A stretch of 57,558 bases of DNA from positions 1 through 57,558 of the IMG/VR virus record IMGVR_UViG_3300022920_000504; one strand, 5' to 3'. The stretch comes from a virus. This document shows, piece by piece, positions 29,635-57,511 of the stretch; positions within the stretch are counted from its first letter, which is position 1, and each line of letters begins with the position of its first letter. Under the pieces are notes generated by a model, which saw only the letters and a list, made by a program, of their open reading frames with translations, was not told the origin of the DNA and made no database searches. The translations under genes and the position numbers were made by a program.

Positions 29635-31737
29635 ATGGAAAATAAAAAACGACAAAAACAAAATAAGGAAGACAGAGCAAGCACCCTCGAATCCTTGATA
29701 AAGTCTGATAACGAAGAGGCAGTAAATACATACGAGTCTTTAAATTGGACCGGCACATTTTGGGATTACATCGCAATGATAGAACAAAATCCAAGTATTG
29801 CGAGAAACTCATACCAAAGACTTTACGATATGGTAATGTCACATGGAACAGAAGAGTTCACATACTGCAAACGTAAACACATTAAGTATAAATTTTTTGA
29901 AGGTCTTGGTGACATTTCTATTTATGGTCTTGAAGAAAATCTAATGGAGTTTATGGACATATTAAAAAGTGCAAGTCGGCATTATGGTCCAGAACGTCGT
30001 GTTATTCTATTACACGGACCTGTTGGTAGTAGTAAGTCTACAATCGTAACTGCTCTTAAAAAAGGTCTTGAGCAATATTCCCAATCAGACGAAGGTGCTT
30101 TATATTCGTTTAGTTGGAAACTCACAGATAAAGACGGAAACGATAATTTAGTTCCATGTCCCATGAATGAAGAACCATTGAAACTTCTTCCTGATGACAT
30201 CCGTAATCAAATTATAGATAATCTTAACGCATCACGTGACGCAGATGACTATAAGATAAAATTAGATGGTGCGTTGAATCCAGTTAATGAGTTTTATTAT
30301 AACCAACTCATGGAACTACATGGTGGTGATTATCGCAAGGTACTTGATCATATTGTTATACGTCGTGTGACTATCTCTGAAAAGAATCGTGTCGGTATTG
30401 GTACGTTCCAACCAAAAGACGAAAAGTCACAAGACGCAACTGAACTTACAGGTGATATCAATTATCGTAAGTTGGCAGAATACGGAAGTGAAAGTGATCC
30501 ACGTGCATTTGATTTTGATGGAGAGTTTTTAGTTTCTAATCGTGGACTTATTGAATTTCAAGAAATTCTTAAACTACAAACAGAATTTTTGTATGATCTT
30601 CTTGGTGCAACTCAGGAACATCGTGTTAAACCACGTCGTTTTAATCAAGTACCTATTGATGAAGTTATTCTTGGTCACACCAATAATGCTGAGTTTGAAA
30701 AGTTGACCAACAACAAATTCATGGAAGCACTTCGTGATAGAACCATTAAGATTGATATTCCATATCTACTGAAAATTGACGAAGAGAAAAAGATTTATGA
30801 TCACTTCTATAATACAAGTACCGTAAACAAGCACATTGCTCCTCATACAACTTATTTGGCTGCATTGTTCGCAGTTGTAAGTCGTTTAGAAGAAAGTTCC
30901 AAGCAAGATATGGGTATTATTCAAAAAGCAAAACTTTACAATGGTCAAAGTGTACATGGATTCACAGATGAACACGTAAAGGAAATGCAAGATGAATCAC
31001 CAAAAGAAGGATTGTATGGTGGAGTATCTGCACGATTTATTCAGAATCAGTTTTCCAACGCAATTGTAAATCCAAGAATGGGTGCTAAGAGTTTAAATCC
31101 ATTTATGTTGTTTGCACAAATTCGTGAAGGACTTAAAAGTTATAGTGGATTTAATAGTGAAGACGATAAAAAGAATTTGATGGAACGTCTTGAAGCAGTT
31201 GAAAAAGAATATGATAGAATTGTGAAACGAGAAGTACAACAAGCACTTAGTAGTAGTGAAGAAGCAATAAAAGCAACGTGTACCAACTATATTGATAACA
31301 TTGTTGCGTATATTCAAGACGAAAAAGTTACCAATCAAGTTACCGGTAAAGAAGAAGTTGCAAATGAACAACTTATGCGTAGCATTGAAGAAAAGATTGG
31401 CATTTCCAATGGCATGAAGGACGATTTCCGTAGAGAGATTATGAATTACATGGGTGGACTTGCCGCTAAAGGTAAAGAGTTCAAATACGACTCTAACGAG
31501 CAGTTATACAAAGCACTTGAAAAGAAGTTGTTTGAAGATACCAAAGATAGCATAAAGTTATCTGCTCTTGCCCAAGATACTGCAACCGTAGTTGATAAAG
31601 AACTTCTTGAAAAGATTGATGCTTTGAAGCAACGACTTATTACTTCATTTGGATATGATGCAGATAGTGCTTCGGATGTTCTTACCTATGTTGGAAGTAT
31701 TTTTGCAAGGGGTGATGCAGACGAAGACGAAGATTAA
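29635..31737 (+). CDS. prkA: PrkA-type AAA+ serine protein kinase (YeaG family)
   Basis: About 700 residues from the ATG at 29635 (E. coli YeaG has 644); an ATG six bases upstream is possible but is badly spaced from the AAGG ribosome site. Signature features: FFEGLGDISIYGLEENLMEF around residue 85-105, P-loop GPVGSSKS (128-135, with Ser for the usual Gly before Lys), then the long helical AAA+ region with TGDINYRKLAEYG, FLVSNRGLIEFQEILK and GHTNNAEFEKLTNNK, the standard PrkA blocks, and a C-terminal helical kinase-like domain. PrkA proteins phosphorylate serine and function with YeaH and SpoVR in starvation and stress responses (E. coli) and sporulation (Bacillus). Both partner genes follow immediately. 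Confidence 0.93.
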   Translation: MENKKRQKQNKEDRASTLESLIKSDNEEAVNTYESLNWTGTFWDYIAMIEQNPSIARNSYQRLYDMVMSHGTEEFTYCKRKHIKYKFFEGLGDISIYGLEENLMEFMDILKSASRHYGPERRVILLHGPVGSSKSTIVTALKKGLEQYSQSDEGALYSFSWKLTDKDGNDNLVPCPMNEEPLKLLPDDIRNQIIDNLNASRDADDYKIKLDGALNPVNEFYYNQLMELHGGDYRKVLDHIVIRRVTISEKNRVGIGTFQPKDEKSQDATELTGDINYRKLAEYGSESDPRAFDFDGEFLVSNRGLIEFQEILKLQTEFLYDLLGATQEHRVKPRRFNQVPIDEVILGHTNNAEFEKLTNNKFMEALRDRTIKIDIPYLLKIDEEKKIYDHFYNTSTVNKHIAPHTTYLAALFAVVSRLEESSKQDMGIIQKAKLYNGQSVHGFTDEHVKEMQDESPKEGLYGGVSARFIQNQFSNAIVNPRMGAKSLNPFMLFAQIREGLKSYSGFNSEDDKKNLMERLEAVEKEYDRIVKREVQQALSSSEEAIKATCTNYIDNIVAYIQDEKVTNQVTGKEEVANEQLMRSIEEKIGISNGMKDDFRREIMNYMGGLAAKGKEFKYDSNEQLYKALEKKLFEDTKDSIKLSALAQDTATVVDKELLEKIDALKQRLITSFGYDADSASDVLTYVGSIFARGDADEDED

Positions 31738-31757
31738 TAGTCAACGAATACATCATT

Positions 31758-32912
31758 ATGCCATCACGTAGAATACGAGAAGACCACGGTGAATACAGAG
31801 ATATCGTCAAAGGAAACGTTGACGAAAAACTCAAAAAACACATTAAAGGTGGTCAACGAGTTACACGAAGAGGAAAAGACTTTGTAGTAGTTCGGGTTCC
31901 TCATGTAGAACTTCCTAGTTTTCGTTACGGACAACCTTCTGATGGAGGTGGTATCGGCAACGGAGAAGCAGATGTAGGAGATGAAGTTGGAGAAGGACCA
32001 CCCGAAGGTCAAGGTCAAGGAGGTCAACCGGGTGAAGGTGGAGAAGGTGAAGGAGAAGGTCATGAAATTGATGTAGGAATCAGCATGGATGCTTACTTTG
32101 ATATGATCGGTGAAGAACTTCAATTACCAAATCTACTTCCCAAAGAAAATGGGGAAATGGTCAAAGAAAAAATCAAGTGGAATCGTATTGCCAAAGTAGG
32201 AAACAATAGTTTGCTTCATAAACGCAAAACTCTCAAGAATGCTTTCAAACGATTAATTTCATCGGAAGACTACAACCCAGACGACTTATCTAACTTTTAT
32301 CCAATTAAAGATGATAAAGAATTCAGAAGTTGGAGTTCAGTTGAAGTACCTGATACAAACGCTGCAATCTTTTTTGTGTCGGATATATCTGCAAGTATGG
32401 ACGAACCAAAACGTGCATTGATTCGTGAACTATGTTGGTATCTTGATAATTGGGTTCAACGATTTTATCAAGAAACTCAAGTAAAATATATTGTACACGA
32501 TCACCATGCCCAAGAAGTAGATCAAGAAAAGTTTTACAAATATAAAAGTGGTGGTGGAACACAAATTAGTAGTGCATTTCATTTAGTCAACGATATTGTA
32601 GAAAACGCATTTCCATTGAACGAATGGAACATTTATGTATTTTATTTAAGTGACGGAGAAAACTTTGGTTCTGATAATGATTTATGTGTTGATTATTTAA
32701 CAAAAATGCAAACATATGCAAATTTAATCGGCATCACCGAAGTAAAAGCAATTAGAAGTTGGGCAACATTTTTGCCACACATTCAATCTAAATTATCAAG
32801 TGGAGAACTTGATCCAAAAACAATAGTAACTGCGTCAATGGACTCACAAGCAGATGTGTTTAAAACACTACAAAAACTGCTGACACCTGCTGGCGAAGAA
32901 GTACCTTTTTAA
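31758..32912 (+). CDS. yeaH: YeaH/YhbH family protein (DUF444) with VWA-like domain
   Basis: A 384-residue member of the family that accompanies PrkA (E. coli YeaH, 427 residues). The N-terminus carries the basic entry with R-x-G-(K)DFVVVRVPHVELPSFRYG, followed by a Gly/Glu-rich flexible linker (GEGGEGEGEGHE, residues about 95-115). The second half is a von Willebrand A-like fold with the metal-site motif DISAS (Asp209-x-Ser-x-Ser), the conserved HDHHAQEVDQEKFYKY and SGGGTQISSAF, and YLSDGENF. Such domains usually bind partner proteins through a metal ion. It lies 20 bases after the kinase gene and four bases before the SpoVR gene, so the trio is one operon in the same order as in bacteria. 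Confidence 0.93.
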   Translation: MPSRRIREDHGEYRDIVKGNVDEKLKKHIKGGQRVTRRGKDFVVVRVPHVELPSFRYGQPSDGGGIGNGEADVGDEVGEGPPEGQGQGGQPGEGGEGEGEGHEIDVGISMDAYFDMIGEELQLPNLLPKENGEMVKEKIKWNRIAKVGNNSLLHKRKTLKNAFKRLISSEDYNPDDLSNFYPIKDDKEFRSWSSVEVPDTNAAIFFVSDISASMDEPKRALIRELCWYLDNWVQRFYQETQVKYIVHDHHAQEVDQEKFYKYKSGGGTQISSAFHLVNDIVENAFPLNEWNIYVFYLSDGENFGSDNDLCVDYLTKMQTYANLIGITEVKAIRSWATFLPHIQSKLSSGELDPKTIVTASMDSQADVFKTLQKLLTPAGEEVPF

Positions 32913-32916
32913 TATT

Positions 32917-34482
32917 ATGGGAATTGCATGGGAAGTAGATAGTTTAAACGAAGGAGTGTGTCCAGAGTTGGCAGCTCTTATACCTGAATGCCTAAAGGCG
33001 TGTTATGATAATGGACTTGATCCGTATCCGTTGTGCATTGAAGAATTTGATGCAGACGAAATAGTTGAAATTGCCGCTTATGGTGGATTTCCTGTTCGTT
33101 ATCCACACTTTAATTTCGGACAACAATTTGAGCAGTTGCATCATCAGTATCATTCTGGTATGGGTAAGATTTACGAAATGGTTGTAAATACTGATCCAAC
33201 TTATATGTACCTTCAACGAAACAATCCTATCGTTGATAATTTGACCGTTGTTGCACACGCAACTGCACATAGTGATTTTTTCAAGAACAACATTATGTTC
33301 AAGCACACGAATCGTAATATGATGAATGTGATGGCAAATCATAGTGATAAAATTCGTATGTATATGGATCGTTTTGGTCGCAAGAAAGTCAAAGACTTTT
33401 TGAACGCAGCTCTTGCAATTGATGATTTAATTGATCCATCACTTTGTTATCGTGAAAGTAATTTAAAGAAAGCAACTAAATTCAACTTTGAAGATCGTCA
33501 ACCAAGAGAACACGTTTCTCGTATGGAAACGAAAGAATATATGCAGAAGTATGTTAATCCTGCACACTATATTGAAAAGCAAAGACGAGAACGTGAAGAA
33601 CGAACAAAGTTAGCAGAAAACAAATTTCCACTTCGTCCTGAACGAGATATTATGTTGATGATTATCAATCATTGTCGTTTAGAACCTTGGCAACAGAATG
33701 TGCTTAGTATGATTCGTGATGAATCTATTTATTATCGTCCACAGGGAATGACCAAAGTACTCAACGAAGGTTGGGCAAGTTATTGGGATAGTTACATAAT
33801 GGCAACTTGTAATTTTGCAGGTGACGAAGGAATCTTTGATTATGCCAAACACCACGCAGGAGTTCTTGGTGGAAAGTATAACATGAACAATCCATATAAA
33901 CTTGGAAACACTTTATTACGTGACATTGAAGATCGTTGGAACAAAGGAAAATTTGGCAAGGAATATGAAAATTGTGACCGTGGTGATGAAAAACGATATT
34001 GGAATAAAAACCTCGGTCTTGGTCGTGAAAAACTATTTGAAGTTCGTGAATTGTATAATGATGTAACATTTCTTAATGAATTCTTTACACGAGATTTTTG
34101 TGAAAAGTATGAGTATTTTGAATATGCGTTAGACAAATCAACCAACAAGTATGTAGTTGTAAGCAAAGATCACAAAAAGATAAAAGAAAAGTTAGTTGAA
34201 CGTCATGTTAATATGGGGCGACCTGTTATTTACATGGAGAATATGAAATATCAAAACACAGAAATTTTACTACGACACGATTTTGATGGAAGACCGTTAG
34301 ATATCAAATACGCAACGGGTACTATGGCATATCTACATGAGATTATCAAAAAACCTATTAATATCCTTACATATGATGTAGACTCTGAGGGATATGGCAA
34401 TGCAAAAGAAACTGTTGAAGTTGAAGTTCGTTATCGTTATTGCAATGGAGAAATGAAACGATTCGAGGGTGGTAAGATTTGA
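32917..34482 (+). CDS. spoVR: SpoVR family protein (YcgB-like)
   Basis: A 521-residue protein, close to the size of E. coli YcgB (510). Conserved SpoVR blocks are visible: FNFGQQFEQLHHQYHSGMGKIYEMV split near residues 68-93, NNPIVDNLTVVAHATAHSDFF, QPREHVSRMETKEYMQKYVN, and the central YYRPQGMTKVLNEGWASYWDS, with many conserved His and Glu residues (HxxxH-like clusters) that look metal-binding. The biochemical function of the family is not established; in bacteria it works in the same pathway as PrkA and YeaH. Full length with no internal stop suggests that the phage keeps it under selection. Confidence 0.93.
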   Translation: MGIAWEVDSLNEGVCPELAALIPECLKACYDNGLDPYPLCIEEFDADEIVEIAAYGGFPVRYPHFNFGQQFEQLHHQYHSGMGKIYEMVVNTDPTYMYLQRNNPIVDNLTVVAHATAHSDFFKNNIMFKHTNRNMMNVMANHSDKIRMYMDRFGRKKVKDFLNAALAIDDLIDPSLCYRESNLKKATKFNFEDRQPREHVSRMETKEYMQKYVNPAHYIEKQRREREERTKLAENKFPLRPERDIMLMIINHCRLEPWQQNVLSMIRDESIYYRPQGMTKVLNEGWASYWDSYIMATCNFAGDEGIFDYAKHHAGVLGGKYNMNNPYKLGNTLLRDIEDRWNKGKFGKEYENCDRGDEKRYWNKNLGLGREKLFEVRELYNDVTFLNEFFTRDFCEKYEYFEYALDKSTNKYVVVSKDHKKIKEKLVERHVNMGRPVIYMENMKYQNTEILLRHDFDGRPLDIKYATGTMAYLHEIIKKPINILTYDVDSEGYGNAKETVEVEVRYRYCNGEMKRFEGGKI

Positions 34483-45009: not shown

Positions 45010-46017
45010 ATGAAAACTGGAGAACTACTAGGAAAAGAAACAGAGGGAGTAAATCAAATTCTGCCTCATAAACATAAATGGGCGTGGGATCTGTATGAAC
45101 AAGGTGTCAAGAATAACTGGATGCCAACTGATGTGCCGATGACAAAAGATGTTCAAAATTGGAAATCATCACCCGATGAAGCATTAAGTGAAGATGAACG
45201 TTTAGTTATCAAAAGATGTCTTGGTTTCTTTGCAGGAAGTGAAAGTTTGGTTGCAAATAATCTTATGACATTGTCCAAGTATATTACTGATCCTGAATGT
45301 AGGCAGTATATGGCAAGACAGATGTATGAAGAGTGTTTGCACAATCACACTGTAGTCTACATATGTGATAGTTTAGACTTGGATATAGGTGAGGTATATG
45401 AAGCATATCAAACGGTTCCATCTATCAAAGCAAAAGATGATTTCCTTATACAGGTAACGGGTGGATTAAATGAAGCAAATATTGATACGTCTACCATTGA
45501 AGGAAAACGAGAGTTGTACAAAGCTGCATTTACATATTGGGTTGTGTGCGAAGGAACATTCTTTTTCAGTGGATTTGCAATGTTACTCGCACTAAGTGAT
45601 AAAATACCAGGTATCGCAGAACAAATTCAATATACACTTCGTGATGAAAGTATTCACATCAAGTTTGGAACAACTCTGCTGAATAAAATACGAGAACAAA
45701 ATCCTGATTTAATGACCGACAAATTTGAAACTGAGTTGACAGAAGTTTTGAAACGAGCAGTTGAACTTGAAATTTCATACGCACAAGATGTATTACCAAG
45801 AGGTATTCTTGGATTAAATTCTGAAATGTTTGTTGAGTATATGCAGTTCATCGCAAATCGTAGATTGGAAAATCTAAATATGAAATACCGTTATGATAGT
45901 GATAACAATCCGTTTCCTTGGTTGAGTGAAGTTATTGATATTCGCAAGCAAAAGAACTTTTTTGAAACAAGAGTTATTGATTATCAGGATGAATCTGCAT
46001 TAGTTGACGATTTTTAA
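45010..46017 (+). CDS. nrdB: Ribonucleotide reductase small subunit NrdB, class Ic-like, radical Tyr replaced by Val
   Basis: A 335-residue beta subunit. Metal ligands are Glu78 (FFAGSESLVANN), Glu108 and His111 (EECLHNHTVVYIC), Glu181 (CEGTFFFSGF), Glu213 and His216 (RDESIHIKFG). The first ligand is Glu rather than the Asp of E. coli-type R2, and the pattern ESLVxNN / HxHTxxYIC is that of the class Ic (Chlamydia) line, which uses a Mn/Fe centre with Phe in place of the radical Tyr. Here the equivalent position is Val115. The C-terminal tail ends DESALVDDF, suited to docking on NrdA. An AT-rich TATATATATT (45000-45009) lies directly against the ATG, with no ribosome site. Confidence 0.94.
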   Translation: MKTGELLGKETEGVNQILPHKHKWAWDLYEQGVKNNWMPTDVPMTKDVQNWKSSPDEALSEDERLVIKRCLGFFAGSESLVANNLMTLSKYITDPECRQYMARQMYEECLHNHTVVYICDSLDLDIGEVYEAYQTVPSIKAKDDFLIQVTGGLNEANIDTSTIEGKRELYKAAFTYWVVCEGTFFFSGFAMLLALSDKIPGIAEQIQYTLRDESIHIKFGTTLLNKIREQNPDLMTDKFETELTEVLKRAVELEISYAQDVLPRGILGLNSEMFVEYMQFIANRRLENLNMKYRYDSDNNPFPWLSEVIDIRKQKNFFETRVIDYQDESALVDDF

Positions 46018-46041
46018 TTGGTATGTACATATATATAGTTA

Positions 46042-46263
46042 GTGGATTACGACCAAGAGCTATACGAACGAAGTTTATACTACCGTCATGTTGTAGATGA
46101 AACCAATGAAATTAATAAGCATAAATGGATTGAATCTGAAAAAGTCGGAGAAGATGTAGGCAAAGACAAAGCAAGGTGGTCTTGGATTTGCCATCATAAA
46201 AACGATTGGCACACACATTGGTTAAACGAAAATTTAGAGAAAATAGAAAATAAAACAGACTAG
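46042..46263 (+). CDS. Small charged protein of unknown function
   Basis: A 73-residue protein with GTG start, rich in Trp, His, Glu and Lys (NKHKWIESEKVGEDVGKDKA, RWSWICHHKNDWHTHW). It lies 25 bases after nrdB behind an ATATATAG element that resembles those near the tape measure start and at 55812. The W-x-x-H-x-x-x-W repeats suggest a compact helical fold, but I recognise no specific family. Confidence 0.6.
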   Translation: MDYDQELYERSLYYRHVVDETNEINKHKWIESEKVGEDVGKDKARWSWICHHKNDWHTHWLNENLEKIENKTD

Positions 46264-46267
46264 TTTT

Positions 46268-46277
46268 TATATTTATT
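46268..46277 (+). promoter_or_regulatory. Late-type promoter motif variant TATATTTATT
   Basis: It ends five bases before ATG 46283, in the 19-base gap after the previous gene, again implying a near-leaderless transcript. Confidence 0.5.
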
Positions 46278-46282
46278 TCTAT

Positions 46283-46693
46283 ATGACAACTGATTCTAAT
46301 ATAACCCAACCATCTGACGAAAAGAGGTTTCTTAGATTTTTACCAACCAATCCACTGCGTCATCTTAAACTACTTGTAGTAGTTTTATTACATTGGGCAG
46401 TTGTAATTGGCAACTTTAGTGCATTTTTTATACTTGCGTTCCAGGGAGTTACTCCATTTGGATATCCGTGGTATATATGCTTACCTTTATGTTCGTTTAT
46501 TATATTAATTTCATTTTCGAGAGTGCTTGATTGCCCCATGACAAGGTACGAAAATAAATTAAGAGTACAAGTGGGAAGACCAACGATCAAAGGATTTATT
46601 GGTCATTACTTTTTAAAACCGTATGTTCGCAGAAAAATCAGAAAAGCACGTGAGATCAGAAAATCAAAAGAACAAAATGAAAATAAAACTTAA
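46283..46693 (+). CDS. Small inner-membrane protein of unknown function
   Basis: A 136-residue protein with two membrane helices, about residues 28-52 (LLVVVLLHWAVVIGNFSAFF) and 60-80 (YPWYICLPLCSFIILISF), joined by a short loop and followed by a basic cytoplasmic tail with DCPMTRYENKLR, IKGFIGHYF and many Arg/Lys. The DCP-x-TR-x-EN pattern looks conserved, but I cannot name the family. The gene overlaps the Ldh2-type dehydrogenase start by 17 bases. Confidence 0.7.
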   Translation: MTTDSNITQPSDEKRFLRFLPTNPLRHLKLLVVVLLHWAVVIGNFSAFFILAFQGVTPFGYPWYICLPLCSFIILISFSRVLDCPMTRYENKLRVQVGRPTIKGFIGHYFLKPYVRRKIRKAREIRKSKEQNENKT

Positions 46694-47753
46694 AGATGCA
46701 ATTGAATTTGCGAACTGGGTGTTTGAAAAAAACAAAGTACCAAGCAAATATTCAAATATATGTGCAGATGTATTAATAAGTGCAGATGAACTTGGATTCA
46801 AGTCACATGGATTAAGTAGACTTGGGTATTATGTAAAACGAATTAAAGATGGTGTAATTGATGTAAATGCGACTCCTGAGATTGTTCGTGACAACAAAGC
46901 TTGTGTAACGATTGATGGTCATAATGCTCTTGGTCAGATTGTCGGAAAGTATGCGATGAATCAAGCAATCGCAAAAACGCAAGAACATGGAATAAGTTGT
47001 GTTGCAGTTAGAAATTCTTCACATTACGGAATTGCAAGTTATTATAGTCGTTATGCAACTGATCATAATTTAGTAGGAATGAGTTTTACAAATGCTCGTC
47101 CCGCAGTTGCTCCACTCAACGGGATTGAACCAAAAATGGGAACTAATCCATACGCAATAGCATTTCCTTCCGATGAAAAGTTTCCGTTTAGCATCGATTG
47201 TGCAACATCAGTTTATCAACGAGGTGATTTGGAACTGATGGCAAGAAAAACTCCTGATAGTTATGTACCAAATTGTGCGATAGTTTCAGATAATCAAAAT
47301 CTTACATTTGAAAGATCACTGAGGTGGTTAGAACGTGGAATCGCAGCCTTAACACCCATCGGAGGACATAAAGGTTCTGGTTTAAGTATTGCAATAGAAT
47401 TAATGTGTTCTGCATTTCAAAGTGGTGCTTATATGAGCAAACTAAGTGGTCTGTATGAAGGAGATACAAAAAATCCGAATTATGATATTGGTCATTTTTT
47501 TATTTGTATTGATCCTGAAAACTTTGCAGACTTAGAAGATTTCAAAAAAAATGTTGGTGATGTGATGCGTGAAATAAAATCAAGCAAACATAAAAAAGGT
47601 GAAGAAATTTTAATTCCTGGTGAAGTTGAATATAATACCTCAGTCGAGGTTCATAAAAACGGAATTGAAATTTCAGATGAATTGCTTGCAGATTTAAAAA
47701 AACTTGGATTTGATTCATGGCAAAAGCAACACACGACAAACAATTTGAAATAG
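46677..47753 (+). CDS. Ldh2 family NAD(P)-dependent dehydrogenase (malate/L-lactate/sulfolactate type)
   Basis: The ATG at 46677 gives 358 residues, the family's usual length; an upstream start at 46623 would lie deep inside the preceding gene. Characteristic blocks are ADELGFKSHGLSRLGYYVKR near residues 36-55, AVRNSSHYGIASYYSRYA near 114-131 (catalytic His in S-S-H-x-G), the Gly/Pro-rich MGTNPYAIAFPS, and GGHKGSGLSIAIELM near 226-241. The family oxidises 2-hydroxy acids (malate, lactate, sulfolactate, ureidoglycolate) with NAD(P). The exact substrate cannot be read from sequence. It lies upstream of the beta-oxidation genes, in the same direction. Confidence 0.88.
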   Translation: MKIKLKDAIEFANWVFEKNKVPSKYSNICADVLISADELGFKSHGLSRLGYYVKRIKDGVIDVNATPEIVRDNKACVTIDGHNALGQIVGKYAMNQAIAKTQEHGISCVAVRNSSHYGIASYYSRYATDHNLVGMSFTNARPAVAPLNGIEPKMGTNPYAIAFPSDEKFPFSIDCATSVYQRGDLELMARKTPDSYVPNCAIVSDNQNLTFERSLRWLERGIAALTPIGGHKGSGLSIAIELMCSAFQSGAYMSKLSGLYEGDTKNPNYDIGHFFICIDPENFADLEDFKKNVGDVMREIKSSKHKKGEEILIPGEVEYNTSVEVHKNGIEISDELLADLKKLGFDSWQKQHTTNNLK

Positions 47754-47968
47754 TCATTGCAATATTAGGAATGATAGGAGGAGGAATACTTCCTTTTCCT
47801 GAATTGATCGGTTGGGGGTTTGTTGTTTTTGCGATTGTTAATTTTTTAAGTATCATCTTTTTCGCAGGAAGAAAAATGTATTGGTTGGCAGCTCTTGCGT
47901 TTTATTTCGTGGTTGTTGATTCAATCGGAATATGGATTCATGTTATAGAAAAACATTTTCTAAATTAA
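47717..47968 (+). CDS. Small integral membrane protein of unknown function
   Basis: An 83-residue protein whose ATG lies 37 bases inside the end of the dehydrogenase gene. It has three hydrophobic stretches: EIVIAILGMIGGGILPF, WGFVVFAIVNFLSIIFFAG and YWLAALAFYFVVVDSIGIWI. I recognise no family. Overlap with the dehydrogenase gene implies coupled translation; a transporter-like or membrane-tethering role is only a guess. Confidence 0.65.
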   Translation: MAKATHDKQFEIVIAILGMIGGGILPFPELIGWGFVVFAIVNFLSIIFFAGRKMYWLAALAFYFVVVDSIGIWIHVIEKHFLN

Positions 47969-48002
47969 TATAAACCCTACTGCAATTATATTCGTTATAT
48001 AG

Positions 48003-48031
48003 TTGACGATATGTATAAAATTGTGTTATAT
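48003..48031 (+). promoter_or_regulatory. Sigma70-like promoter before the beta-oxidation cassette
   Basis: TTGACG (48003-48008), 17-base spacer, TTATAT (48026-48031). It is the only clear promoter between 47.7 and 54.5 kb and would drive the thiolase-FadJ-acyl-CoA dehydrogenase-serine dehydratase operon. Start site about 48038, eight bases before the ATG. Confidence 0.55.
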
Positions 48032-48045
48032 ATAATGTAACGATT

Positions 48046-49293
48046 ATGAATAAAAAAGTATATCTAGTAGATGGTACTCGCACACCTTTTTGTAAGATGG
48101 GTACAACATTCGCAAATACATCAGCGGCAGACCTTGGGATTTCTGCCACAAAATCACTATTTGCGAATATGGACATTGATCCAAGTATAATAAATGAAAG
48201 TGTAATGGGGTGTGTTTGTCAACCGGCAGATACTGCAAATATTACAAGAGTAATTGCACTCAAATCAGGAGTACCTAAAAGTGTTCCTGCTTACACGGTG
48301 CATCGCAATTGTGCAAGTGGATTTGAATCCATCACACAGGCACATGATAAAATAAACGCAGGTAGAGGAAGTGTATATTTAAGTGGTGGAACTGAGAATA
48401 TGACACAGGCACCATTTTTATATCGCAAAAGTGCAGTTGATAAATTTACACAACTTAGTAAATGCAGAACATTTCGGGATCGTCTACATACGGTATTAAG
48501 TTTCCGACCAAAAGATTTCGCACCAATAATTAGTTTGCGACTCGGATTGAGTGACATAACCGTTGGAATGAATATGGGTGAAACTGCTGAATTGATTGCA
48601 AGAGAAAGTGGAGTAACACGATATCATCAAGATAAATTTGCATTGGAATCTCATTTAAAAGCATTTGTGGCAATAGAAAAAATGTCATCGGAAATTTCCC
48701 CATTTTATTTCACAAACGGAACATTTGTTGATGCAGACAATGGAATTCGTGGTGAACAAAGTATGGGTGCTTTAGAAAAACTTAAACCTGTGTTTGATAG
48801 AAAGCAAGGAACGGTAACTGCTGGTAATGCATCACAAATTACAGACGGAGCAGTTTCGTTACTGATTGCAGATGAACAAGCAGTAAAACAAAACGATTGG
48901 AATCCACTAGGCAGAATTTCAGCATACGCATACGCAGGATGTGATCCTGAACGAATGGGTCTTGGTCCAGTTTATGCAATTCAGAAAGTATGCGAAGAAA
49001 CAGGATATAAACTTGATGACTTTGATTTAATTGAAATCAATGAAGCATTCGCTGCTCAAGTTCTTGCAGTTTGTAAACAACTCAAAAAAACCACAGACTT
49101 GGGTGAAGTTGATGATTCAATATTGAATGTCAATGGAGGAGCAATTGCTCTTGGTCATCCAGTTGGATCAAGTGGATCACGCATTGCACTTACTACTTTA
49201 AAGGAACTTGAACGTCGTGGTGGTAAACGAGCATTAATTTCACTTTGTATCGGTGGTGGTCAAGGTGGAGCAATCATTTTAGAAAGAGATTAA
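48046..49293 (+). CDS. fadI: Acetyl-CoA acyltransferase (thiolase, FadI-like)
   Basis: A 415-residue thiolase with all catalytic residues: nucleophile Cys89 (HRNCASGFESI), the NEAFAAQ loop (332-338), His371 (GHPVGSSGSR) and Cys401 (CIGGGQGG). It catalyses the final cleavage of 3-ketoacyl-CoA to acetyl-CoA plus a shortened acyl-CoA, or the reverse condensation. Length and the TVHRNCASG form are closer to FadI (436 residues) than to FadA (387). It is the first gene of a four-gene operon; the next gene starts after one base. Composition and start style are the same as in the phage genes around it. Confidence 0.94.
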   Translation: MNKKVYLVDGTRTPFCKMGTTFANTSAADLGISATKSLFANMDIDPSIINESVMGCVCQPADTANITRVIALKSGVPKSVPAYTVHRNCASGFESITQAHDKINAGRGSVYLSGGTENMTQAPFLYRKSAVDKFTQLSKCRTFRDRLHTVLSFRPKDFAPIISLRLGLSDITVGMNMGETAELIARESGVTRYHQDKFALESHLKAFVAIEKMSSEISPFYFTNGTFVDADNGIRGEQSMGALEKLKPVFDRKQGTVTAGNASQITDGAVSLLIADEQAVKQNDWNPLGRISAYAYAGCDPERMGLGPVYAIQKVCEETGYKLDDFDLIEINEAFAAQVLAVCKQLKKTTDLGEVDDSILNVNGGAIALGHPVGSSGSRIALTTLKELERRGGKRALISLCIGGGQGGAIILERD

Positions 49294-49294
49294 T

Positions 49295-51370
49295 ATGAGC
49301 AACTCAATTAAACGAGAACAACACGATGAAGTCGTTACTATCATTTTCGACCAAGAAAACTCAAGTGCAAATGTATTCAATGAAAATATGTTTGTGGAAC
49401 TTGATGAACAATTAACATTTATTGAAAATAATCAAAAAGATTTTCGTGGTGTTATTTTCAAAAGTGCTAAACCAAGTATTTTTATCGCAGGTGCCGACTT
49501 AAAATCATTTGCAGATGATCCTACACCTGAACGTATTTCATATTTGATTAAACTAGGTCAACAAATTTTTGATAGAATTGAAAATCTGTGTATACCAACT
49601 GTGGCTGCAATAAATGGTGCGTGTGTTGGTGGTGGATATGAACTTGCTCTTGCGTGTGATCATCGTGTAGCAACTTTAGATTCAAGTACAAAGATAGGTC
49701 TACCTGAAACGATGCTTGGTATTCTTCCTGCGTGGGGTGGTTCAACTCGTTTACCACGAATGATTGGAATTGCGAATGCTATGAATATCATTCTCGGTGG
49801 AAAGGTTGTCGTACCAAAATTGGCATACAAATATAAAATGGTGGACAAACTTGTGTATAAAGAATATTTAGATTCAGCAGCTAAATCGTTATTACACAAC
49901 GGAAAAAAGAAATACAAAAAACATACACTAAATCGTTTTCCATTAAAATATATTGCCAAATCAAAAGCAATTAAGAATGTAATGAAATTAACAGGTGGAG
50001 TTTATCCTGCTCCATTAAAAGCAATTGATGTAATGATAAATGGTTTGAGTGTAAGTCACCAAGAGTCTTTGAAACTTGAAGAGCAAGCATTCGCAGAACT
50101 TTTGACTTCTGATGTAGCAAACAACTTGGTTAATATTTTCTTTTTACAAGAAAGAAGCAAGAAAACCAAAAGTGATAAAGATTTCAAAGTTACTAATACG
50201 GCAGTTATAGGTGCTGGAGTTATGGGTGCAGGCATCGCACAATGGATTAGTTCAAGAGGAATTAAAGTATTGCTCAAGGATATTAAGCCAGAGTTTGTAG
50301 CAAAAGGTATTGCAAGCATAAACAAGTTGTACTCAGCAGCTGTTAAGAAACGAGTAATGACCAAAGCAGAAGCATCAAGTAAATTAGATAATGTTACACC
50401 AATCACAGAGTCATTGCCAATGAAGAACATTGACTTGGTGGTAGAAGCTGCGATTGAACAACTTGAAATCAAGCAGGATTTATTCGTGGAACTTGAAACA
50501 CTTGTTCGTGATGATACAATTTTAGCAACAAATACATCAGCATTAAGTATTGTTGATATTGCTGATAAAATGCAACACAAAGAACGAGTGGTTGGAATAC
50601 ATTATTTTAATCCTGTTCACAAAATGAAGTTGGTGGAAGTGGTTCGTGGAGAATGTACAAGTGAAGAAACGATTCTTAAAGCAACTCAGTTTGTAAAGAA
50701 AACAGGTAAACTTCCTGTGATCGTAAAAGATTCACCTGGTTTTTTGGTAAATCGTATTTTGATGCCTTATTTAATTGAAGCAGTAAATTTAGCAAATCAC
50801 GGAGTTAACATAGAACATACCGACAAACTTCTTCGTAAATTCGGAATGCCAATGGGACCATTTCGTTTGATTGACGAAGTGGGTGGTGATGTATGTCAAC
50901 ACGTTGCCGATGATCTACTGAATCGTCTTGAAACGAAGTTTCCAAATAGTAATCTTCTTAGACGAATGATTGAAGAAGGAAATCTTGGAAAGAAATCTGG
51001 ACAAGGATTTTACAAATACTCAAATGGAAAATCCAAGGGTGTGTGTGATGTTCCGGTGAATGATAACTTTAACAACGATTGTGAAAACGAAGAAATTGTT
51101 GATAGATTAATTTTAATTATGGTCAATGAAGCAATTCGTTGTTTACAAGAAAAAGTTGTAGAAAGTCCAAAAGATGTTGATTTTGGTATGATAATGGGAA
51201 CAGGTTGGGCTCCGTTTCGTGGAGGACCTATTTCGTATTGTGATAATCTTGGTGCAGGTGAAGTTGTTAAAAAACTTAATAAACTTGCAACAAAAAGCAA
51301 ATACTTTGAACCATGCGAATTGTTGATTGAACACGCAAACAAAAATAAAAAATTCTACGGAGAAAAATAA
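49295..51370 (+). CDS. fadJ: Fused enoyl-CoA hydratase / 3-hydroxyacyl-CoA dehydrogenase (FadJ/FadB-like)
   Basis: A 691-residue bifunctional enzyme (E. coli FadJ has 714). Crotonase half: oxyanion-hole segment FIAGADLKSF, NGACVGGGYELALACDHR with Glu116 and IGLPETMLGILPAWGGSTRL with Glu138, the two catalytic glutamates. Dehydrogenase half: Rossmann motif GAGVMGAGIAQ (306-316), the VEAAIEQLEIK helix, ATNTSALSI, catalytic His436 in GIHYFNPV and the C-terminal domain with DSPGFLVNRIL. It hydrates 2-enoyl-CoA and oxidises the product with NAD. Pairing with a FadI-type thiolase next door is the standard bacterial complex. No sign of decay. Confidence 0.95.
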   Translation: MSNSIKREQHDEVVTIIFDQENSSANVFNENMFVELDEQLTFIENNQKDFRGVIFKSAKPSIFIAGADLKSFADDPTPERISYLIKLGQQIFDRIENLCIPTVAAINGACVGGGYELALACDHRVATLDSSTKIGLPETMLGILPAWGGSTRLPRMIGIANAMNIILGGKVVVPKLAYKYKMVDKLVYKEYLDSAAKSLLHNGKKKYKKHTLNRFPLKYIAKSKAIKNVMKLTGGVYPAPLKAIDVMINGLSVSHQESLKLEEQAFAELLTSDVANNLVNIFFLQERSKKTKSDKDFKVTNTAVIGAGVMGAGIAQWISSRGIKVLLKDIKPEFVAKGIASINKLYSAAVKKRVMTKAEASSKLDNVTPITESLPMKNIDLVVEAAIEQLEIKQDLFVELETLVRDDTILATNTSALSIVDIADKMQHKERVVGIHYFNPVHKMKLVEVVRGECTSEETILKATQFVKKTGKLPVIVKDSPGFLVNRILMPYLIEAVNLANHGVNIEHTDKLLRKFGMPMGPFRLIDEVGGDVCQHVADDLLNRLETKFPNSNLLRRMIEEGNLGKKSGQGFYKYSNGKSKGVCDVPVNDNFNNDCENEEIVDRLILIMVNEAIRCLQEKVVESPKDVDFGMIMGTGWAPFRGGPISYCDNLGAGEVVKKLNKLATKSKYFEPCELLIEHANKNKKFYGEK

Positions 51371-51372
51371 TT

Positions 51373-53223
51373 ATGAGTGAAATAGATACGTCAAAAATGT
51401 CCAAGGGTAAAGCAGATGCCTTGGAAGCAGCTGAAGCTGCAAGAGATAAAGGTAAAAAGGGTGTAAAAAGTTTTAGTGGTGGATTGTTCACAGGAGAAGC
51501 AAACTACGATTTGATTTATCCGTTTCCAAAACAAAAAGATGAAGATAAAGCAAAAGGAGATGTTTTTCTTGGACAACTAAATGAAGTAATAGATAAACAC
51601 GTTGATGCAGATGCAATTGATCGTGAAGGAGAAATTCCTGACAAAGTATTTGAAGAACTCGCAAAGATTGGTGCATTTGCAATTAAAATTCCAACTGAAT
51701 ATGGTGGTCGTGGATTGTCACAAACCAACTACTCAAGAGCGGCAATGAGATTAGGAGAAGTGTGTGGTAATATTACTGCATTGGTATCAGCACATCAAAG
51801 TATCGGTGTTCCTCAACCACTATTGCTTTTCGGAACAGATGAACAAAAGAAAAAGCATCTTCCTCGTTTTGGTAAAGGTGAAATTAGTGCATTTGCGTTG
51901 ACTGAAGAAACCGTAGGTTCTGATCCTGCTCAAATGAATGTTTATGCAGAATTGTCGGAAGATAAAACTCATTATGTATTAAACGGAGAAAAACTTTGGT
52001 GTACCAACGGAGTTAAAGCAAGTGTTATTATTGTGATGGCAAGAACACCTGATACAGAAATCAAAGGCAAAATGCGAAAAAGTATTTCAGCATTCATTCT
52101 TGATATGGATACACCTGGTGTAGAAGTGGTTAATAGATGTCGTTTTATGGGTCTTAAAGCACTATACAATGGTGTTGTAAGATTTACCGATGTAAAGATA
52201 CCGGCAGAGAATTTAGTAGCAGGAGAAGGCAAAGGACTCAAAGTAGCACTTAGTACATTGAATACAGGTCGTCTTACATTACCAGCTGCTTGTGTGGGAC
52301 TTATGCGTAGTTGTTTAAAGATTTCACGTGAATGGGGATCAACCCGTGAACAATGGGGATGTGTTATTGGTAAGCACCAAGCAATCGCAGATAAAATTGC
52401 AAAGATTGCAGCCAAAAGTTTTGCAACTGAAAGTATTGTTTTATTTACATCAAGTTTAGTGGATGGCAAGAAAGCAGATATTCGTGTTGAATCTGCAATG
52501 TGCAAAATGTGGGGAACAGAAGAAGCATGGAAAGTTGCCGATGAAACGATGCAACTTCGTGGTGGTCGTGGTTATGAAACTGCTGACTCACTTCGTGATC
52601 GTGGAGCAGACCCAATTCCTGTGGAAAGATATTTGCGTGATTGCCGTATCAATATGATTTTTGAAGGTTCAAGTGAAATTATGCGTCTGCTTTTAGCACG
52701 TGAAGCACTTGATCCACACCTCAAAGCAGCCGGAGCAGTTTTAGATTCACGATTACCTTTGATGGTGCGTTTAAAGGCTGCTATAGGAGCAGGAATACAT
52801 TACGCAACTTGGTATCCAAAACAATGGTTACCAACTTTCAATTCAGGTCCGTCTGGAGTAAATAGTTCTGTTAAAAAGTATCTTCGTTATGTTTCAAGAA
52901 CAAGCAAGAAATTAAGCAGAAAACTTTTTCATTCAATGGCACGATATGGTCCTTCATTAGACAAACAACAAATGCTTCTTGGTCGTTTGACTGAAATCGG
53001 AACAGAATTGTTTGTAATATCTGCGTGTGCATTGCGTATTGATAGCATGATCAAAGATGATCCTGAAAAAGCAACTGAATATCTTGAGTTGATGGATGTG
53101 GTTTTTAGTGAAGCAAAAATCAAAATCAAAAACAACTTCAATGGAATGAGCAACAATAACGATAAAAAGAATTATTCTTTCGCAAAGAAAATTCTTGGTG
53201 GTACATTCAAGTTTCTTGAATAA
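51373..53223 (+). CDS. Acyl-CoA dehydrogenase, long-chain (VLCAD/ACAD9-like) type
   Basis: A 616-residue flavoenzyme. Core blocks: IPTEYGGRGLSQTNYSRA, FALTEETVGSDPAQM (FAD/substrate loop), LNGEKLWCTNG, and near the end QLRGGRGYETADSLRDR followed by RINMIFEGSSEIMRL with the catalytic base Glu431 in the F-E-G motif. A C-terminal extension of about 160 residues, as in mitochondrial VLCAD/ACAD9 and related bacterial enzymes acting on long chains, includes an amphipathic basic segment (YVSRTSKKLSRKLFHSMARYG) that could touch the membrane. It carries out the first oxidation of acyl-CoA and passes electrons to a flavoprotein (ETF) not seen here. The stop overlaps the start of the next gene. Confidence 0.93.
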   Translation: MSEIDTSKMSKGKADALEAAEAARDKGKKGVKSFSGGLFTGEANYDLIYPFPKQKDEDKAKGDVFLGQLNEVIDKHVDADAIDREGEIPDKVFEELAKIGAFAIKIPTEYGGRGLSQTNYSRAAMRLGEVCGNITALVSAHQSIGVPQPLLLFGTDEQKKKHLPRFGKGEISAFALTEETVGSDPAQMNVYAELSEDKTHYVLNGEKLWCTNGVKASVIIVMARTPDTEIKGKMRKSISAFILDMDTPGVEVVNRCRFMGLKALYNGVVRFTDVKIPAENLVAGEGKGLKVALSTLNTGRLTLPAACVGLMRSCLKISREWGSTREQWGCVIGKHQAIADKIAKIAAKSFATESIVLFTSSLVDGKKADIRVESAMCKMWGTEEAWKVADETMQLRGGRGYETADSLRDRGADPIPVERYLRDCRINMIFEGSSEIMRLLLAREALDPHLKAAGAVLDSRLPLMVRLKAAIGAGIHYATWYPKQWLPTFNSGPSGVNSSVKKYLRYVSRTSKKLSRKLFHSMARYGPSLDKQQMLLGRLTEIGTELFVISACALRIDSMIKDDPEKATEYLELMDVVFSEAKIKIKNNFNGMSNNNDKKNYSFAKKILGGTFKFLE

Positions 53224-54575
53224 TGTATAGTGTTCTTGAATTTTTCAAGATAGGAATTGGTCCTTCTAGTTCACATACTATAGGACCAATTACTGCATCT
53301 CGTAAGTTCGTCACTTTTCTAAAACATAAAAAAGTATTTGGGAAAGTTGATTCGATTAAAATTGAATTGTTCGGTTCACTTGCATTAACAGGTGCTGGTC
53401 ACGGAACACCAATAGCAATTCAACTTGGGTTAATGAACTACTCGGCGGATAAAGTAAAACAAAGGCAGTTAAATGAAGTTGATTCACTTGACGGTGAATT
53501 AAAACTTGGTGGAATTCGCAAAATCAAATTTACAAACGATGATATAATTTTCAATAAAAAGAAAAAACTTCCGTATCATCCCAACGGAATAAAGTTTTAT
53601 GCGTATGTAGACGGAGACGAAGTCGCAACTAGAATTTATTATAGCATAGGTGGTGGATTTGTGGTAACCGAGGAAAATGCTAAAAAGAATAAAATAAAAT
53701 CAAGCAAGAAAAAACTTACTAATGCATTTTCAACTGCGGACGAACTTTTCACCATTGCAGAAAATCGTGATCTTAACATATCAGATGTTATACTTGAAAA
53801 TGAAAAATGTTTTAGAAAAAATCGTGAAACAAAAAAGAAACTGCGGAAAATATGGAAAGTGATGCAGGAGTCTGTTGATCGTGGTTTAATTGCAAATGGA
53901 ATGCTTCCTGGTAAAATAAATGTGGAACGAAGAGCTGGAATCATGTATGAAAAGTTTTTAGAAAATCAACAAGTCGGATCAAATGATTATTCAGATTATG
54001 TAAGTATTTGTGCAATTGCAGTAAACGAAGAAAATGCAGACATGAATCGTGTGGTTACTGCTCCAACAAATGGTGCATCTGGAATTATACCAGCAACGAT
54101 GATGTATATCAATGAATATATTACCGATAAACCTGAAGATTGGGAAATAAAATTTCTATTAACTGCCGGAGCAATTGCAATGTTGTATAAAATAAATGCA
54201 AGTATCTCAGGTGCTGAAGTCGGTTGTCAAGGTGAAGTAGGAGTTGCGTGTAGTATGGCAGCCGGTGCATTAACTGAAATTGTAGGAGGAACTTTAAAGC
54301 AAGTTGAAAATGCGGCGGAAATTGCTATGGAACATAATCTTGGATTGACGTGTGATCCTATTGCTGGTCTTGTACAAATACCTTGTATTGAACGAAATGC
54401 GATAGGAGTTGGCAAAGCAATTAATGCAAGTCGTATGGCAATGTTAAACGAACAAGATACTAAAATATCACTAGATGATGTGATTAAGACAATGAAAGCA
54501 ACAGGTGAAGATATGAAGTCTGCTTACAAAGAAACAAGTCAAGGTGGATTGGCAGTAAATGTAACTGAGTGTTGA
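53223..54575 (+). CDS. sdaA: L-serine ammonia-lyase (serine dehydratase, [4Fe-4S])
   Basis: A 450-residue single-chain enzyme (E. coli SdaA 454). The N-terminal domain begins with FFKIGIGPSSSHTIGP, the family hallmark; the catalytic domain has VTAPTNGASGIIPATMMY and GAEVGCQGEVGVACSMAAGAL, then LTCDPIAGLVQIPCIERNA, holding the cluster cysteines. The last residue is Cys450, which fits the C-terminal tail cysteine that caps the fourth iron in characterised enzymes. It converts serine to pyruvate and ammonia. The ATG overlaps the stop of the acyl-CoA dehydrogenase gene (TAATG), so the enzyme belongs to the carbon cassette and would feed pyruvate alongside acetyl-CoA. Confidence 0.95.
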   Translation: MYSVLEFFKIGIGPSSSHTIGPITASRKFVTFLKHKKVFGKVDSIKIELFGSLALTGAGHGTPIAIQLGLMNYSADKVKQRQLNEVDSLDGELKLGGIRKIKFTNDDIIFNKKKKLPYHPNGIKFYAYVDGDEVATRIYYSIGGGFVVTEENAKKNKIKSSKKKLTNAFSTADELFTIAENRDLNISDVILENEKCFRKNRETKKKLRKIWKVMQESVDRGLIANGMLPGKINVERRAGIMYEKFLENQQVGSNDYSDYVSICAIAVNEENADMNRVVTAPTNGASGIIPATMMYINEYITDKPEDWEIKFLLTAGAIAMLYKINASISGAEVGCQGEVGVACSMAAGALTEIVGGTLKQVENAAEIAMEHNLGLTCDPIAGLVQIPCIERNAIGVGKAINASRMAMLNEQDTKISLDDVIKTMKATGEDMKSAYKETSQGGLAVNVTEC

Positions 54576-54606: not shown

Positions 54607-55809
54607 ATGTATATAAAAGAACTAGAGAAGTTTGCGATTAAACCTTACTTTTTTATTGGAGAAGATGACTGGACATCAGTAAAAGAAACATACGAACGAG
54701 CAGATGTGCAAGAAACACTCGCAGAGATTTTAATGAAATACGATCTTCCGTACATGGAAATTTCTGAAAAAGAAGCACTCGCAGAATACAAAACATTAAA
54801 AGGAACAAAGTGGAACGATTTGTTTGTAGACAAAAAATGGTTCGCACGTTCTGAATATGAATGGCCATTAAGTACAACTTTGTTGAAACGATTAAACACG
54901 GGAAACAAAGCAAGTAACTTCTTCCAACAAGAAAATCGTTGGAGTGTATGTGGAAGTGTTTCACCTGGTCCGTTGAGAACTTGGAAAAACAAAGATTTTA
55001 TGACAAGTTTGATGGGATGTCTTTATACTTTGAAGTCTCCAAAAGTAGATAAATCAACATTGCGTACCGGTATAGGTCTTAGAAAGTATATTTGCAGTCA
55101 ATTCAAACCCAATGTTGCTAAGGTATTGTATGAAAAGCATAATGCAAAAACGGTACTTGATTTCAGTATGGGGTGGGGTGATCGGTTGTGTGGTTTTTTT
55201 GCAAGTGATTGTACCGAGAAATATATTGGTCTTGATCCTCGTAAAGAAAATCATCCAATCTATAAACAACAAGCAGAATTTTATGAAAAGCATCGCACGT
55301 TTTTTGAAGTAGATAAATCATATGACTTTATATGTTCACCTGCGGAAGATGCAGATTTATCAGCATACAAAGAAAGTGTTGATTTGATTATGACAAGTCC
55401 ACCCTATTTCTCGGTGGAACGATATAGCAATGATGATACTCAAAGTTGGGTTCGTCATAAAAGCATTGAAGATTGGAATACTCAATTTTTGCAAAAAGCA
55501 ATTGATAATGTATGGGAAACTTTAAGACCAGGTGGTTTGCTCATGGTTAATATTAGTGATGTTAACACTACAAGCAAAGGAATGAAAGGTGGAAAGCAAT
55601 GGTTGAAAATTTGCGATCCCATGAACGATCATTTAAGCAAAAAGGCAAATGCTGAGTATGTTGAATGCTTCGGAATGGAAATGGCAAAACGACCAAATTG
55701 CCTTGGAATCGGAACTGCGGAAGATACTGATGATAGTAAAATGGATACCGAGTATCATGCACGTGAAGGAAGTTTTGGAGAACCGGTGTGGGTTTGGAAA
55801 AAGAGTTGA
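54607..55809 (+). CDS. DNA amino-methyltransferase (TSPPY type)
   Basis: A 400-residue protein with motif order I then IV: LDFSMGWGDRLCGFF at residues 184-198 (S-adenosylmethionine site, with a Trp inside the FxGxG-like turn) and TSPPYF at 263-268, the catalytic motif of N6-adenine or N4-cytosine methyltransferases. YIGLDPR between them carries the acidic cofactor ligand. The region after motif IV (LRPGGLLMVNISDV) completes the fold. An N-terminal domain of about 170 residues without a recognisable family may read the DNA target. Probably protects phage DNA or marks it for transcription. No cognate endonuclease is seen. Confidence 0.85.
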   Translation: MYIKELEKFAIKPYFFIGEDDWTSVKETYERADVQETLAEILMKYDLPYMEISEKEALAEYKTLKGTKWNDLFVDKKWFARSEYEWPLSTTLLKRLNTGNKASNFFQQENRWSVCGSVSPGPLRTWKNKDFMTSLMGCLYTLKSPKVDKSTLRTGIGLRKYICSQFKPNVAKVLYEKHNAKTVLDFSMGWGDRLCGFFASDCTEKYIGLDPRKENHPIYKQQAEFYEKHRTFFEVDKSYDFICSPAEDADLSAYKESVDLIMTSPPYFSVERYSNDDTQSWVRHKSIEDWNTQFLQKAIDNVWETLRPGGLLMVNISDVNTTSKGMKGGKQWLKICDPMNDHLSKKANAEYVECFGMEMAKRPNCLGIGTAEDTDDSKMDTEYHAREGSFGEPVWVWKKS

Positions 55810-56856: not shown

Positions 56857-56886
56857 ATAGTTCTTGTAAATTTTAACTTTATTGTA

Positions 56887-56896
56887 TATATTTATA
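56887..56896 (+). promoter_or_regulatory. Late-type promoter motif TATATTTATA before nusG
   Basis: An exact copy that ends 12 bases before the ATG of the nusG-like gene, in the 52-base gap after the SAP gene. Confidence 0.5.
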
Positions 56897-56908
56897 TACA
56901 ATAAACAT

Positions 56909-57511
56909 ATGGAAACTATAAACACAGAACAAAACATAGATACCAAAAATAACAAGTGGTATACATTAAAGGTATTGTCTAATTTTGAACAAAAAGCGCA
57001 AAAACTTATAGAAAAAAAGTTAGAACAAGAACCTGAGAGCAAAAAATTTTTTCATGAGGTACTGATGCCATCTGAAATTGTTACAACCGTTAAACAGGGA
57101 AAGAAATCGGCCCGAGTAAGAAAATTGTATCCTGGATATTTGTTTGTAAGAATGAATATTTATGATGAAGAAGACTCAGATGAGTTGAATGCGAAAGCAT
57201 ACTACTTTATTAATGATATAAATGGTGTAACTGACTTTATTGGTGGCAAAAATCCTGTTCAATTGTCAAAACACGAAATAAATACAATCAAAGAACATAT
57301 AGCAAAGTATCAAGATGAAGAAGTACCCAAATCTTACTACGATATAGGTCAACTTGTATCTATTTTAGATGGTCCTTTTATGGGGTTGACGGGAGAAATT
57401 AGTTCCGTAGACTCCGATCACCAAAAGTTAAAAGTGCTTGTTAGTATATTTGGTCGTGAGACACCAGTTGAATTAGAAAACTGGCAAGTTGAACGAGTAG
57501 AAGAAGAATAA
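56909..57511 (+). CDS. nusG: Transcription antitermination/elongation factor NusG
   Basis: The ATG at 56909 gives 200 residues (E. coli NusG has 181); an upstream in-frame start at 56882 lies in the promoter motif and is rejected. The NGN domain begins with NKWYTLKVLSNFEQKAQKLI, the strand-helix pattern of NusG, followed by VRKLYPGYLFVRM and NGVTDFIGG. A KOW domain follows (DIGQLVSILDGPFMGLTGEI, with SSVDSDHQKLKVLVSIFGRE), ending ELENWQVERVE. It should bind RNA polymerase and alter pausing or termination. Full-length NusG in a phage is unusual; it may redirect host polymerase to phage genes. Confidence 0.93.
   Translation: METINTEQNIDTKNNKWYTLKVLSNFEQKAQKLIEKKLEQEPESKKFFHEVLMPSEIVTTVKQGKKSARVRKLYPGYLFVRMNIYDEEDSDELNAKAYYFINDINGVTDFIGGKNPVQLSKHEINTIKEHIAKYQDEEVPKSYYDIGQLVSILDGPFMGLTGEISSVDSDHQKLKVLVSIFGRETPVELENWQVERVEEE

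Follow-up and report, generated by a model that had tools for sequence, protein, structure and literature searches.

Metabolic genes carried by phages usually encode single enzymes that relieve one bottleneck. Viral genes for fatty acid oxidation have been described in several settings: fadB and fadL were found in Pacific Ocean Virome reads, with the idea that marine viruses drive fatty acid oxidation (PMC4053976); fadJ and fadD occur in phage contigs, and fadJ is among the phage genes of polyhydroxyalkanoate cultures (PMC12013262); and giant viruses of the Nucleocytoviricota encode an acyl-CoA dehydrogenase and an acyl-CoA synthetase but neither hydratase nor thiolase (PMC9270025). The main text of a global ocean catalogue of auxiliary metabolic genes does not mention beta-oxidation (PMC11360552). 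Whereas single beta-oxidation genes of phages are therefore already known, our search of the main texts of open-access papers yielded no description of a complete cycle on a single phage, which is not proof of absence. Here, we describe such a cycle in the IMG/VR virus record IMGVR_UViG_3300022920_000504, a linear record of 57,558 bases (GC 35%) that was analyzed over its whole length and is referred to below as the window. A cassette of three genes at positions 48046 to 53223 encodes a thiolase, a FadJ-type fusion protein, and an acyl-CoA dehydrogenase. We estimate a probability of roughly 70% that it is a long-chain beta-oxidation module derived from a Verrucomicrobiota-type operon, kept under selection, and used to fuel infection from host lipids (plus serine). 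The three genes, all full length with open frames, are the following.

48046 to 49293, + strand: thiolase (acetyl-CoA C-acyltransferase, FadI-like), 415 amino acids; Pfam Thiolase_N/C, NCBIfam TIGR01930 above cut-off
49295 to 51370, + strand: trifunctional-enzyme alpha subunit of FadJ type (enoyl-CoA hydratase plus 3-hydroxyacyl-CoA dehydrogenase), 691 amino acids; Pfam ECH_1, 3HCDH_N, and 3HCDH
51373 to 53223, + strand: acyl-CoA dehydrogenase (ACAD) of the VLCAD/ACAD9 type with C-terminal extension, 616 amino acids; Pfam Acyl-CoA_dh_N/M/1 and ACAD9-ACADV_C

An initial annotation of this DNA had recognized three adjacent full-length beta-oxidation genes in this span, separated by 1–2 bases, and the open reading frames, the Pfam and NCBIfam identities, and the measured spacing (1 base between thiolase and FadJ, 2 bases between FadJ and ACAD) agree with it, except that it listed the ACAD first. 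It also ended the operon at 53223, but the stop codon of the ACAD gene shares one base with the start of an L-serine dehydratase gene, which therefore belongs to the same operon. All four reactions of the spiral are encoded, and every catalytic residue that had been named is at its position and invariant in alignments of 17–23 phage and bacterial homologues. Cys89, His371, and Cys401 of the thiolase are conserved in all 17 aligned sequences, and Glu116 and Glu138 of the hydratase and His436 and Glu448 of the dehydrogenase in all 23, whereas Glu431 of the ACAD lies in an IFEG motif that is likewise invariant in its alignment. The fusion protein has the architecture of the FadB/FadJ family (about 700 residues, with ECH_1 at 13–208, 3HCDH_N at 302–479, and 3HCDH at 482–575), and its AlphaFold2 model (pLDDT 91) is closest to the alpha subunit of the E. 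coli anaerobic trifunctional enzyme (6ysv, TM-score 0.94), ahead of the aerobic form; with 624 bits against the NCBIfam FadJ cut-off of 869 (PRK11154), it falls within the FadB/FadJ family and outside the curated FadJ equivalog. The thiolase passes the general model TIGR01930 and scores below the FadI equivalog cut-offs (PRK08963, 347.8 bits versus 560; TIGR02446, 279.3 versus 711.55), and we therefore refer to it as FadI-like, not FadI. From adjacency and homology, the two proteins would be expected to form an alpha2beta2 complex. The ACAD has ACAD9/VLCAD as its best phmmer match, its C-terminal extension is recognized by PF21343 (39.1 bits, cut-off 27.8), and its AlphaFold2 model (pLDDT 87) has human VLCAD (7s7g, TM-score 0.82) and then ACAD9 as the best PDB folds.

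The type of ACAD bears on the direction of the pathway. VLCAD-type ACADs pass electrons to the electron-transferring flavoprotein (ETF), and an ETF-linked ACAD points to oxidation; long-chain oxidation is therefore favored, and the chain-building direction that the initial annotation had kept as a possibility becomes unlikely. The reactions of FadJ and thiolase are reversible, which would allow the cycle to build chains from acetyl-CoA, but ETF-linked ACADs are, to our knowledge, not efficient enoyl-CoA reductases, and neither a trans-enoyl-CoA reductase nor a thioesterase was seen in the operon; we regard a reverse cycle as highly improbable.

The window is a bona fide large T4-like phage contig, with a major head protein, a contractile tail sheath, ssb, RecA, exonuclease, DnaB, nrdA, nrdB, and NusG identified by Pfam, NCBIfam, and PHROG matches. 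Of the phage genes that had been assigned to the flanks of the cassette, those for replication, ribonucleotide reductase, and NusG are confirmed by family matches, whereas the candidate spanin gene at 43991 has none. Scanning IMG/VR with the three proteins retrieved eight further contigs from separate datasets that carry the same locus in the same phage context, giving nine with the window. As far as each contig reaches, the order is nrdA, a protease-like gene, nrdB, an Ldh_2-family gene, and thiolase; three of them (G001, G002, and G003) hold the complete trio with the serine dehydratase next to it (truncated in G002, where the contig stops), and in two of the three the locus continues to the methyltransferase and NusG. 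Across the sister contigs, identity to the window is 79–97% for the thiolase, 66–99% for FadJ, and 81–98% for the ACAD (the highest value coming from a partial gene), and the gaps within the cassette range from −1 to 3 bases. The ratios of nonsynonymous to synonymous substitution (dN/dS, Nei-Gojobori) between the window and its relatives are 0.08–0.13 for the thiolase, 0.065–0.163 for FadJ, and 0.07–0.12 for the ACAD, compared with 0.02–0.09 for nrdA, nrdB, and RecA; ratios from G003 pairs are rough because their synonymous sites are near saturation. The cassette genes are under purifying selection. They thus show two features of auxiliary metabolic genes: a place on a viral genome with viral hallmark neighbors (T4 head, sheath, and replication genes), in a locus kept in eight further contigs, and cellular homologues, here in Verrucomicrobiota, of genes that stay intact under selection. 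A third feature, expression that changes host metabolism during infection, is predicted.

These comparisons also bear on whether recombination or misassembly could have placed a functionless bacterial operon next to phage DNA. Every contig is metagenomic and none is a finished isolate, which leaves some room for such an origin. However, the nine syntenic contigs share the same borders and have 70–94% DNA identity over the locus, which rules out an assembly chimera, and dN/dS values of 0.07–0.16, full-length frames, and a related cassette in a second phage group argue against neutral cargo, so that we give functionless or chimeric DNA an almost negligible chance. Nor do the genes look like unrelated recent transfers with decaying frames, the other outcome that had been named as fatal, since the frames are intact and all three are relatives of one Verrucomicrobiota operon type. 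Carriage of a complete, sequence-intact beta-oxidation cycle by a real phage is therefore strongly supported, as had been proposed.

With respect to bacterial origin, when 84,980 species genomes of bacteria and archaea were scanned with FadJ, the closest relatives came from Verrucomicrobiota (up to 49% identity), where chromosomal loci (e.g. in an Opitutaceae and a Verrucomicrobia genome) carry adjacent thiolase, FadJ, and ACAD genes in the same order, with protein identities of 57, 49, and 59% in the best case; loci of Gammaproteobacteria mostly have thiolase and FadJ without such an ACAD. The phage genes fall among Verrucomicrobiota sequences in the ACAD tree and group with Opitutaceae in the FadJ tree (support 95). 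Among 388 sampled Verrucomicrobiota genomes, the highest ACAD identity is 60%, and a full or near-full-length ACAD at 47% or more occurs in about 37. Because the gene order matches, the identities are 49–59%, and the best ACAD reaches 60%, the phage probably acquired the operon, of a Verrucomicrobiota type, in one piece and in the distant past rather than recently. Unlike the chromosomal operon, the phage copy lies between nrdB/Ldh_2 and the methyltransferase gene, is linked to the L-serine dehydratase, and has shrunken gaps.

The initial annotation knew of no other phage with a whole cycle, but fadB/fadJ-type phage genes had been reported (PMC4053976, PMC12013262), and at least two further phage groups carry the full set. 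In a group that we call B (the window and its sisters being group A), contig 3300032006_002703 (107 kb, with a T4-type terminase) has thiolase, FadJ, and ACAD genes near nrdAB (51, 47, and 65% identity), and contig 3300046532_004458 holds the ACAD end of such a cassette followed by DUF2784 and nrdAB. A shared origin of the A and B cassettes is indicated by the ACAD, which forms one clade (100/99), with FadJ support of only 68 and a thiolase tree that does not settle the matter. An unusual cargo gene for a DUF1501 protein (301 bits) lies between the cassette and nrdAB on a group B contig (G021, reversed 52482–53765). Group C comprises twelve contigs with a thiolase-FadJ pair at about 36–40% identity; a T4 head protein is present on two of the twelve, and a FadE-type dehydrogenase on five of the larger ones, elsewhere in the genome from FadI-FadJ, with the copy on G009 being full length and including the bacterial ACDH_C domain. 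The FadI-FadJ genes of this group fall inside Pseudomonadota in the trees, and group C has therefore acquired its full set (FadI, FadJ, and FadE) independently, from Gammaproteobacteria. That a second T4-like group gained the set on its own speaks for repeated selection of the function. Members of group C also encode DnaK/DnaJ-like and phosphoenolpyruvate synthase-like proteins, identified by eye. Further viral contigs carry a VLCAD-like ACAD alone, at 43–45% identity. In INPHARED, the matches listed for the three proteins, short pieces apart, do not exceed about 40% identity across most of the query. Most come from contigs whose annotation is that of ordinary bacterial genes (Acinetobacter phage MD-2021a, Salmonella records) or from unannotated records. 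The acdA gene of Microcystis phage MaAM05 (MW495066) was rejected as a phage relative; it lies among flagellar and murJ genes, in a region that is probably bacterial DNA.

In the mechanism that we propose, host acyl-CoA would come from a ligase of the host or from recycling of its membrane lipid, and the VLCAD-like dehydrogenase would desaturate it, handing the electrons to ETF and the respiratory chain of the host. The FadJ/FadI-like complex would then hydrate, oxidize (yielding NADH), and thiolyze the product to acetyl-CoA, the shortened acyl-CoA re-entering the cycle, while the serine dehydratase of the same operon would add pyruvate. The phage would thereby gain acetyl-CoA, pyruvate, NADH, and reduced flavin for replication of a large genome. 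This would be in line with the reported response of phage-infected cells under phosphate limitation, in which host fatty acid degradation proteins rise and lipids fall (PMC11170926). Several points weigh against the energy reading. Expression of the operon during infection, activity of its products, and a benefit to the phage are predicted from sequence, and the long-chain substrate range is presumed from homology. Host clues diverge, the operon pointing to Verrucomicrobiota but the closest head proteins belonging to a huge phage and to Flavobacterium phage immuto. Finally, as had been noted for the window, acyl-CoA ligase (PF00501, none over cut-off) and ETF (PF01012, none) were not found, here on 16 contigs of the groups, which are fragments, so that these genes could lie elsewhere; lipase and FadL were outside the search. 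Activation and electron transfer therefore come from the host or from unsequenced parts of the genomes, and the module as found must depend on the host for both.

The same enzymes would also suffice to remove or recycle acyl-CoA and free fatty acids released by breakdown or remodeling of the host membrane, the purpose being detoxification or remodeling of membranes for progeny, with energy as a by-product. A FadI/VLCAD-type system handles long chains and virocells deplete lipids, as this would require, but a serine dehydratase in the operon and the arginine catabolism genes of a sister phage (see below) fit fuel supply better, and we consider a clean-up role unlikely. Another use could be the catabolism of short-chain or branched acyl-CoA, derived from amino acid carbon skeletons or a storage polymer, instead of long-chain fatty acids. 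The generic family match of the thiolase (TIGR01930), the amino acid catabolism genes nearby, and the association of phage fadJ/phaC-type genes with polyhydroxyalkanoate (PMC12013262) would suit it, whereas the VLCAD/ACAD9-type ACAD with its C-terminal extension and an alpha subunit fold closest to the FadJ trifunctional enzyme speak for long chains; it is, in our view, distinctly unlikely as the main use. We therefore favor long-chain oxidation of host lipids as fuel. Other features of the window, including the neighbors of the cassette, are as follows.

600 to 2024, + strand: T4-type major head protein (phrog_138, E 6.8e-76)
5609 to 8281: tail sheath, a phage context gene
45010 to 46017, + strand: nrdB, small subunit of the phage ribonucleotide reductase, which marks the conserved 5' border of the module (phrog_86, PF00268)
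46623 to 47753, + strand: Ldh_2-family NAD(P)-dependent dehydrogenase of the malate/L-lactate/sulfolactate type (Pfam Ldh_2, 344.5 bits)
47996 to 48045, + strand: AT-rich conserved leader with a TTGAC motif, before the thiolase gene
53223 to 54575, + strand: L-serine ammonia-lyase (SdaA, iron-sulfur type; L-serine dehydratase), 450 amino acids (TIGR00720, 592.9 bits, cut-off 345)
54607 to 55809, + strand: DNA methyltransferase-like gene, conserved 3' neighbor (PF01555, phrog_12517)
56882 to 57511, + strand: NusG-like transcription antiterminator of phage (PF02357, phrog_6386)

The one-promoter operon of the initial annotation did not find support, as a consensus promoter and terminator scan gave nothing above chance, with 55 matches against 51.6 ± 8.3 in shuffled sequence. 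However, all nine clade members have the TTGAC motif in the leader, and this leader is a possible promoter. The Ldh_2 gene is the conserved upstream neighbor in all clade contigs, 292–906 bases from the thiolase gene, and may be part of the same metabolic module; its best NCBIfam match is L-sulfolactate dehydrogenase, below cut-off. Two of the nine clade members have an extra gene of about 215 residues upstream of the thiolase gene, behind the small gene that follows Ldh_2 (G008, reversed, 14369–15010; G003, 25144–25797), with no match in the window. As a clue to the host, the best matches of SdaA were sought and are spread over a Verrucomicrobiota genome (53%), a Planctomycetota genome (51%), and Legionella (50%). 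No tRNA genes were found in the window. The head protein has its nearest relatives in LR756508, an uncultured huge phage of 484 kb (54% identity), in Flavobacterium phage immuto (53%), and in Microcystis phage Mel-JY01 (51%). At 29629–34482, the window encodes a PrkA-like serine kinase (32% identity to a gene of Thermus phage phiYS40 and 49% to huge phage LR756511), and the two large genes after it may encode the partners that usually accompany PrkA, the second having a PHROG match of unknown function. On sister contig G001 (IMGVR_UViG_3300046168_000085), a group of catabolic genes begins right after NusG, where the window ends (reversed 45279–52607), and includes homologues of AstA, AstB, and AstD together with genes for an M20 hydrolase and a class III aminotransferase and a fragment resembling 2-oxoadipate dioxygenase; several genes of this region are split by frameshifts, probably read errors. 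A search with a single-sequence query for a second AstA-bearing viral contig found none, so that the arginine cassette is known from this one contig, which also carries a full translation initiation factor IF-3 gene (reversed 70794–71336; TIGR00168, 183.8 bits).

The common theme of the serine dehydratase, the Ast genes, and the cassette is catabolism of host lipids and amino acids. A broader and tentative proposal, to which we give somewhat less than an even chance, is a general catabolic take-over by several unrelated large phages, which would carry whole pathways rather than single enzymes (beta-oxidation, SdaA for serine, and, in a sister phage, AstA/AstB/AstD for arginine), burning host lipids and amino acids via the tricarboxylic acid cycle. 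Because only about one-tenth of the sampled Verrucomicrobiota genomes have such a full-length dehydrogenase, this might occur in hosts that lack part of this capacity.

Together, the presence of the same set in other phage lineages and the conserved operon mean that some viruses probably burn host lipids for energy during infection. A complete cycle in one operon, strong selection, and at least two independent gains by T4-like phages suggest that energy from host lipids can limit phage yield; the cassette could be a phage-encoded mechanism for the lipid loss seen in virocells and would bear on the share of lipid carbon that is respired versus released at bacterial lysis. The fatty acid genes reported from marine viruses share with this locus the idea of virus-directed oxidation and membership in the FadB/FadJ family, but they are single genes or reads (PMC4053976, PMC12013262), whereas here every step is encoded in one operon on one contig. 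Giant viruses also carry an acyl-CoA dehydrogenase but infect eukaryotic hosts (PMC9270025). Huge phages LR756508 (484 kb) and LR756511 (595 kb) and phage immuto resemble the window in the head protein (LR756508, immuto) or the PrkA-like kinase (LR756511), but unlike it are not among the beta-oxidation matches listed in the phage collection. The E. coli system, in which the FadJ-FadI anaerobic trifunctional enzyme works with FadE, is like that of the phage in the fold of FadJ and in its FadI-like thiolase; on the other hand, the phage dehydrogenase is of the 616-residue VLCAD/ACAD9 type, not the 814-residue FadE, and the phage has all three genes in one operon.

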